DNA from: Patescibacteria group bacterium
GTDB taxonomy: Bacteria; Patescibacteriota; Patescibacteriia; 2-12-FULL-60-25
NCBI GenBank assembly: GCA_029210915.1
Contig: JARGGJ010000007.1
Coordinates: 1 to 64,000 of the forward strand
Direction: 5' to 3'
Length of the DNA: 64,000 nucleotides
Below are positions 1,058 to 1,234 of the stretch, piece after piece. The position numbers and the translations under genes are program-made. The notes under the pieces are model-generated. The model was not told where the DNA came from and ran no database searches. It was given only the letters and a program-made list of their open reading frames with translations. Numbering within the stretch: the first letter of the stretch is position 1; every line of letters starts with the position of its first letter.

Positions 1058-1082
1058 CTCTCATTCATCAGCCAGACTGATA

Positions 1083-1201
1083 TAGGGAGGTGGCCAACAG
1101 GTAAGGCAAGTATGGTTACGCGATCACAGCTGTACGGCTAATAACCGTAAAAAAAGCTGGATCGGGAATACTAAATGTGGGTTCAAATCCCACCCTCCCT
1201 A
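1083..1201 (+). ncRNA. tRNA-like RNA with a greatly enlarged anticodon arm
   Basis: The body folds as a tRNA. The acceptor pairs AGGGAGG (1084-1090) with CCTCCCT (1194-1200), and A1201 is the discriminator. U8 is followed by a D arm GCC-AACAGGTAA-GGC (1093-1107). AGTAT (1109-1113) pairs with ATACT (1168-1172), then a 4-base variable loop, then a T arm GTGGG-TTCAAAT-CCCAC (1177-1193). The anticodon loop is 54 bases instead of 7 and folds into a rod: CGATC/GATCG, CAGC/GCTG, then TACGG/CCGTA closing a 7-base loop CTAATAA. That tip resembles an ordinary anticodon stem-loop with U33. No CCA is encoded. Promoter and terminator suggest an independent transcript. It may be a tRNA with an unusual insertion, or a tRNA mimic. 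The amino-acid identity cannot be given. Confidence 0.75.
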
Positions 1202-1211
1202 CTTCACGACC
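1182..1211 (+). repeat. Left copy of tRNA 3'-end direct repeat (att-like)
   Basis: It covers the T loop, the 3' acceptor strand and the start of the terminator of the tRNA-like gene. It recurs at 2393-2421 with an identical 15-base core CACCCTCCCTACTTC plus matching TTCAAAT and CGACC blocks. Confidence 0.7.
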
Positions 1212-1234
1212 TCACGACTCAAGTGAGGTTTTTT
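1209..1234 (+). terminator. Intrinsic terminator of the tRNA-like RNA
   Basis: ACCTCAC (1209-1215) pairs with GTGAGGT (1223-1229) around a 7-base loop and is followed by a run of six T. Confidence 0.8.

Follow-up and report, generated by a model that had tools for sequence, protein, structure and literature searches.

What is an RNA that has every part of a tRNA body and a 54-nt loop in place of the anticodon loop: a tRNA, a precursor whose insert is removed, or something that does not decode at all? Such an RNA is encoded near the start of the window (the whole stretch of 64,000 nucleotides analysed here), which begins at base 1 of its contig in a genome assembly of 1.46 Mb, 49 contigs and 98% completeness. 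Genome size and gene content point to a host of the Patescibacteria (CPR) type. According to a 2020 review, the anticodon arm is among the most size-constant parts of tRNAs. Standard tools skip genes in which this arm is outsized.

An intact-looking tRNA body with a rod for an anticodon arm

The RNA and its parts, as read from the sequence, are listed below in window coordinates (+, forward strand; -, reverse strand).

1084-1202, +: tRNA-like RNA of 119 nt that encodes no CCA (A1201 as discriminator, followed by CTTC)
1084-1090/1194-1200, +: acceptor stem AGGGAGG/CCTCCCT, 7 of 7 pairs Watson-Crick
1093-1107, +: D arm GCC-AACAGGTAA-GGC, with A14, G18, G19 and A21 and an unusual C15
1109-1113/1168-1172, +: anticodon stem AGTAT/ATACT, probability 0.14-0.19 in the unconstrained ensemble
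1114-1167, +: anticodon loop, 54 nt
1121-1164, +: rod of CGATC/GATCG, CAGCT/AGCTG and TACGG/CCGTA, with the 7-nt terminal loop CTAATAA at 1138-1144
1177-1193, +: T arm GTGGG-TTCAAAT-CCCAC, the sole part matched by the Rfam tRNA model RF00005

This is a real, intact-looking tRNA-bodied RNA. It has the canonical 7-bp acceptor stem, U8, A14, G18 and G19, a T loop fitting TTCRANY and a variable loop (AAAT) within the usual 4-5 nt, so that the sequence-only reading, which had described the body as complete through its acceptor, D, anticodon and T stems, was borne out. The exception is the canonical anticodon arm: the 5-bp stem closes 54 nt rather than 7, and position 33 is G instead of U. Position 15, usually a purine, is C, a minor correction to that reading. 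The structure as drawn comprises 35 pairs with zero G-U pairs and zero mismatches; a long-decayed tRNA copy would be expected to carry one or the other.

The rod consists of 15 bp in three 5-bp helices capped by the 7-nt loop, with pair probabilities mostly of 0.98-1.0 (0.71-0.83 for two end pairs). The loop region 1114-1167 folds at -19.3 kcal/mol (z = -4.5), and none of 200 shuffles folded as well, in agreement with the earlier description of stacked helices ending in a 7-base loop; the fold of the whole RNA has a z of -4.2. The further suggestion that the terminal CTAATAA might act as an anticodon (AAU) found no support. The cloverleaf is supported by these predictions, short of proof, because the best unconstrained fold pairs the D region differently: a GTGGCCA/TGGTTAC hairpin takes the place of the D and anticodon stems in the minimum-energy fold, which beats the cloverleaf by just 1.7 kcal/mol. 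Folding programs often miss the cloverleaf of tRNAs in favour of another fold.

The RNA is flanked by signals of its own.

1031-1057, +: promoter, with -35 TTGACA (1031-1036), a 15-nt spacer and -10 TATAAT (1052-1057)
1034-1048: exact dyad ACACAA-ATC-TTGTGT across the promoter spacer, the sole exact match to its pattern in the window
1067-1081, +: leader hairpin ATCAG/CTGAT, 5 bp (fold of 1055-1083, z = -1.06, weak)
1208-1235, +: intrinsic terminator, found by a terminator scan and by folding of 1208-1230 (z = -4.1, strong)

A consensus promoter, a leader hairpin and a terminator had all been proposed beforehand. Both sigma-70 hexamers are indeed perfect and the terminator is strong, but the spacer is short, a promoter scan with 16-18-nt spacers did not pick the promoter up, and the leader hairpin is weak. 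The dyad, which had gone unremarked, may be a repressor site or operator.

Searches for known RNA families and for homologues

Of the checks that the sequence-only reading had suggested, ARAGORN missed the RNA by default and reported it, as a Pro(cgg) gene with an intron, only when introns were allowed, and the covariance model RF00005 rejected it (15.3 bits, T arm only, below the cut-off). No Rfam family matched at threshold. One could still imagine a known tRNA-like family, such as tmRNA or YrlA-type Y RNA, that has diverged past recognition, given the tRNA body with its extra domain and the T arm, which gives a faint tmRNA match of 11.2 bits. We consider this highly improbable: the RNA is too short for a tmRNA, neither the tmRNA search of ARAGORN nor RF00023 detected one, and the Rfam Y RNA families did not match.

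The two well-known classes of tRNA intron had been dismissed on sight, and both dismissals held. The insert of 47-54 nt has no Rfam match to group I introns, whose known catalytic core takes about 200 nt or more. Archaeal bulge-helix-bulge (BHB) introns likewise interrupt a tRNA anticodon loop with a short insert; here, however, the internal loop is 7/3 rather than a 3-nt bulge, 4-bp helix and 3-nt bulge, the junction lies within a helix, and neither the archaeal splicing endonuclease (PF01974) nor RtcB (PF01139) was found in the 98%-complete host genome.

BLAST against 96 genomes, a covariance-model search of 381 genomes from the class and a pattern search all failed to find a homologue of the rod itself. 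The model, built from the window RNA, scored 154 bits on the RNA itself, and its next best score in the 381 genomes (46 bits) fell on ordinary tRNAs. BLAST matches in relatives, phages and plasmids were mostly T-arm matches to ordinary tRNAs. Two matches in the class besides the window looked like tandem-tRNA artefacts, judged by their printed sequence; of four in the genome collection, three were ordinary or tandem tRNA-Cys and one was no tRNA; and the first viral match (L083) was an ordinary phage tRNA.

An extra gene in a strain-specific segment

In the host genome, 47 tRNAs score above the Rfam cut-off; every one of them encodes CCA, and together they cover the usual isotypes, Pro CGG, UGG and GGG included. 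Since this set is full, the window RNA is extra to it, and decoding does not need its gene. A CCA-adding enzyme is encoded in the host genome. On another contig of the same genome (C19, 8385-8453), a truncated, degenerate tRNA-Thr-like copy (18.8 bits) lies just upstream of tRNA-Thr(GGT).

The surroundings of the gene contain the following.

1-292, -: IS30-type transposase, N-terminal portion only, truncated at the contig end (the translated complement matches HTH_38 with 27.0 bits)
459-1034, +: orphan ORF, 191 aa; no relatives found in 239 other genomes of the class, viral contigs, Pfam (above cut-off), PHROGs or PADLOC
1398-1937, +: orphan ORF, 179 aa, between both 3'-end copies; two weak N-terminal relatives only, both in family member G021
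1980-2336, +: zinc-ribbon-like ORF, 118 aa (weak zinc-ribbon matches in Pfam and PHROGs)
2393-2447, +: second copy of the T loop and of the 3' strand of the acceptor stem, with a terminator hairpin that has diverged (direct repeat, by alignment; terminator-like fold, z = -2.0)

The 179-aa ORF had no relatives in viral contigs, and no tRNA-like RNA lay beside its two relatives in G021. The 3' end of the RNA, beginning with the T loop, is thus repeated about 1.2 kb away, with a different sequence in the terminator hairpin. Elements that integrate at the 3' ends of tRNA genes leave such duplications, and the second copy can be read either as attachment-site-like or as the remnant of a second gene. 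No integrase was seen between the copies or elsewhere in the segment, nor was a phage hallmark gene. When the region after def was fetched from seven genus relatives (mostly several kilobases, at least one stretch being ended by a contig end), none of them shared any of the window sequence below def; the window segment is strain-specific. Together with the orphan ORFs, the IS30 fragment and the 3'-end duplication, this gives the stretch the look of a mobile element, and the RNA is probably of mobile origin.

tRNA bodies with inserts recur in viral genomes

Viral contigs were searched for tRNA D and T arms lying 58-88 nt apart; the matches were many, and 113 RNAs were left after filtering on the acceptor and T stems. 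When the same loci were scanned again without the spacing constraint, the spacings were bimodal: 646 tRNA bodies were normal and 164 were extended, and 146 of these extended bodies were distinct; these counts describe loci chosen by pattern rather than frequencies in viruses, and some of the contigs may belong to archaeal or eukaryotic viruses. We then asked whether removing one block would restore a 5-bp anticodon stem with U33 and a purine at 37. It did so in 61 of the 146 bodies (42%), as against 1.4% for shuffled inserts, and the restored loops were typical of their isotypes (Pro UUUGGGA, Gln UUUUGGU, Asp CUGUCAC). The other 85 had no solution with U33. ARAGORN called introns in about 100 of the 113 RNAs, with erratic isotypes, and its Pro(cgg) call for the window RNA was for that reason dropped as evidence.

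The window RNA fits this viral class by its body and by the length of its insert, its 47-nt excess falling within the class range of 30-60 nt. Its closest structural match is a gene on a 315-kb viral contig (IMGVR_UViG_3300048591_000147; L125, 6317-6422), which has the same type of D arm, a T stem identical to that of the window RNA and an anticodon arm extended into one rod with a 7-nt loop. That gene differs in its 21-bp rod of unrelated sequence, in encoding CCA, in passing the Rfam tRNA threshold with 61.4 bits and in being readable as Lys(UUU) with a 33-nt insert. Similarly, a 108-nt-type RNA of the Aeromonas phages Aeh1, PX29, Ah1 and phiAS5 combines a tRNA body with a structured insert that replaces the anticodon loop and, by inspection, has no U33 solution; unlike the window RNA, it encodes CCA and belongs to a group marked by a hairpin and the motif ACNGCAA, which is absent from 1114-1167. 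This insert RNA occurs in 13 records, annotated as tRNA-Val, tRNA-Leu or nothing, and an insert-bearing tRNA of Synechococcus phage B23 is annotated tRNA-Undet.

A more distant likeness is the species 1 RNA of phage T4 (rnaC), also a small stable RNA from a phage, in which a T arm and acceptor-like ends enclose long helices; it is 139 nt long, lacks a D arm, has a long variable-type hairpin and an imperfect acceptor, and lies within a tRNA cluster. T4 rnaD, likewise 119 nt long, is not tRNA-like. In Lak megaphages, tRNA introns were reported in 2019, one of them perhaps encoding a tRNA, the authors being aware of no previous example (PMC6784885). Like ours, those genes combine a tRNA body with a short insert left unresolved by default bacterial tRNA finders, and they lie in a mobile setting, which is probable for ours. 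They are phage-borne and were reported as introns, whereas the window RNA lies on a bacterial contig, has a single rod and has an excision solution at near-chance level (see below). Judging by the literature searched, the phage class as a whole has been outlined but hardly studied.

A mimic of tRNA, or a tRNA with a removable insert?

We slightly favour the reading that the window RNA is a stable, tRNA-derived RNA borne by a mobile element and non-decoding as transcribed, most likely serving as a mimic or decoy (probability roughly 0.4). As we infer its expression, processing and function, it would be transcribed from its own promoter and end at its own terminator; RNase P would then trim the 5' end of the tRNA body, and the host enzyme would probably add CCA. 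With the rod in place of the anticodon arm, a 7-nt loop would be presented far from the body. The body could engage proteins that handle tRNAs, such as EF-Tu, a synthetase, or nucleases and toxins that target tRNAs; the rod would keep the RNA out of decoding or would itself be the bait. Counted in favour of a mimic are the all-Watson-Crick pairing, a rod far more stable than its shuffles, the promoter hexamers and terminator, the full tRNA set and the CCA-adding enzyme of the host, the strain-specific segment with its orphan ORFs and duplicated 3' end, the bimodal viral set with its bodies that have no U33 solution, the Aeromonas RNA kept across its records without a normal anticodon loop, and the rod of L125 with its similar body. 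Counted against it, many phage analogues resemble tRNAs with a removable insert rather than decoys, the predicted ensemble leans towards a fold lacking the D and anticodon stems, RF00005 takes several phage analogues (33-61 bits) but rejects the window RNA, and the rod had no homologue in the genomes searched.

The main rival is that the gene encodes a tRNA, Pro(CGG) by its loop, interrupted at 31/32 or 32/33 by a removable insert of 47 nt, which some nuclease would cut out and whose flanking halves would be joined, possibly by a ligase of the T4 Rnl1 type. The hypothetical insert would be:

1114-1160 (or 1115-1161), +: 47 nt, whose removal leaves the loop AUCGGGA (or GUCGGGA) with anticodon CGG, the sole solution with U33 and a purine at 37

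Its removal would leave a perfect 72-nt cloverleaf with A73 and with a loop that resembles UUCGGGA, as found in Pro CGG tRNAs. Inserts of 30-60 nt that are neither BHB nor group I do exist in phage tRNA genes, as the Lak introns and the solved viral bodies with their typical loops indicate, and one viral gene (L140) has a Pro(UGG)-type loop with a 50-nt insert at the same 31/32 position. The host moreover encodes an Rnl1-type homologue with a KxDG motif (L377, 174-1292); among 57 relatives 2 have this ligase, and 14 control genomes all lack it. Yet 0.34 of shuffled window loops also yield a solution when the stem is kept, which is near chance, and the readiness of ARAGORN to call introns, with unstable isotypes, removes its weight here. 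The 3' junction would fall inside a helix of the rod, where most of the presumptive anticodon loop is paired; the body has A1-U72, where Pro has C1-G72; a Pro CGG tRNA is already present in the host; and neither RtcB nor an archaeal-type splicing endonuclease was found in the 98%-complete genome. The ligase gene sits on a different contig (C1) beside tsaD, and tying it to the window RNA is conjecture. We regard an excised insert as a close rival, somewhat less likely than the mimic. Rather unlikely is a further possibility, that a tRNA gene of a mobile element was broken by insertion of the hairpin and is no longer used, except perhaps as an attachment site: the duplicated 3' end, the nearby IS30 fragment, the missing CCA and the occurrence in a single genome are in line with it, while the faultless pairing (35 of 35), the intact promoter and terminator and a segment free of integrase speak against it.

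The sequence-only reading had offered a tRNA with a stretched arm or a mimic, perhaps from a mobile element. The strain-specific locus and the recurrence of the architecture in phages, down to a 21-bp rod with a 7-nt loop, strengthen this proposal; it had dismissed only BHB and group I introns, and an excised insert stays a rival. Preferring the mimic, we tentatively extend it, with less assurance, to a class of tRNA-bodied RNAs of phages and mobile elements, in which a rod or other structure replaces the anticodon arm and which would act as mimics (for example, as decoys for tRNA-cutting defences), the window gene being a member on a bacterial contig. Should RNAs of this kind prove real and in use, mobile elements would hold a reservoir of tRNA-shaped RNAs with non-decoding jobs. 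If the excised insert is true instead, these elements would have a way to remove small tRNA introns in bacteria, one that differs from group I and has no known machinery. Comparable genes in cultured Aeromonas and Synechococcus phages make direct tests possible.

Further insert types in the viral set

In the commonest well-defined viral group, the insert measures about 43 nt and falls at 28/29 or 29/30; it often contains a 7-bp hairpin followed, after two bases, by ACNGCAA, and its removal often gives anticodon loops typical of an isotype. The ACNGCAA bases were part of the selection and the hairpin was not. RNAalifold returned no structure for the motif segments, the hairpin being out of register in the alignment, and single folds show it. 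These inserts are possibly one family of small introns. They occur in phage tRNA genes, often in tandem, at L308 (4649-5198), L241 (10450-10935), L329, L277, L279, L354 (2497-2606) and L349 (1501-1619). The last of these loci is in Aeromonas phage Aeh1, where three extended tRNA bodies stand in tandem (1235-1622) and only the last is annotated, as tRNA-Val.

In other viral genes, a whole tRNA or an acceptor and T-arm minihelix seems by eye to lie inside the anticodon loop (L256 6110, L231 2870/3330, L290 3273/4498, L302, L297, L234 and L289), some with CCA, as if they could be released by RNase P and 3' tRNA processing. A further recurrent tRNA-like family (L132, L145, L149, L200, L217, L223, L226, L227 and others) has a near-fixed acceptor, AGTCAGG/CCTGACT, and anticodon-arm inserts that are variable and apparently compensated.
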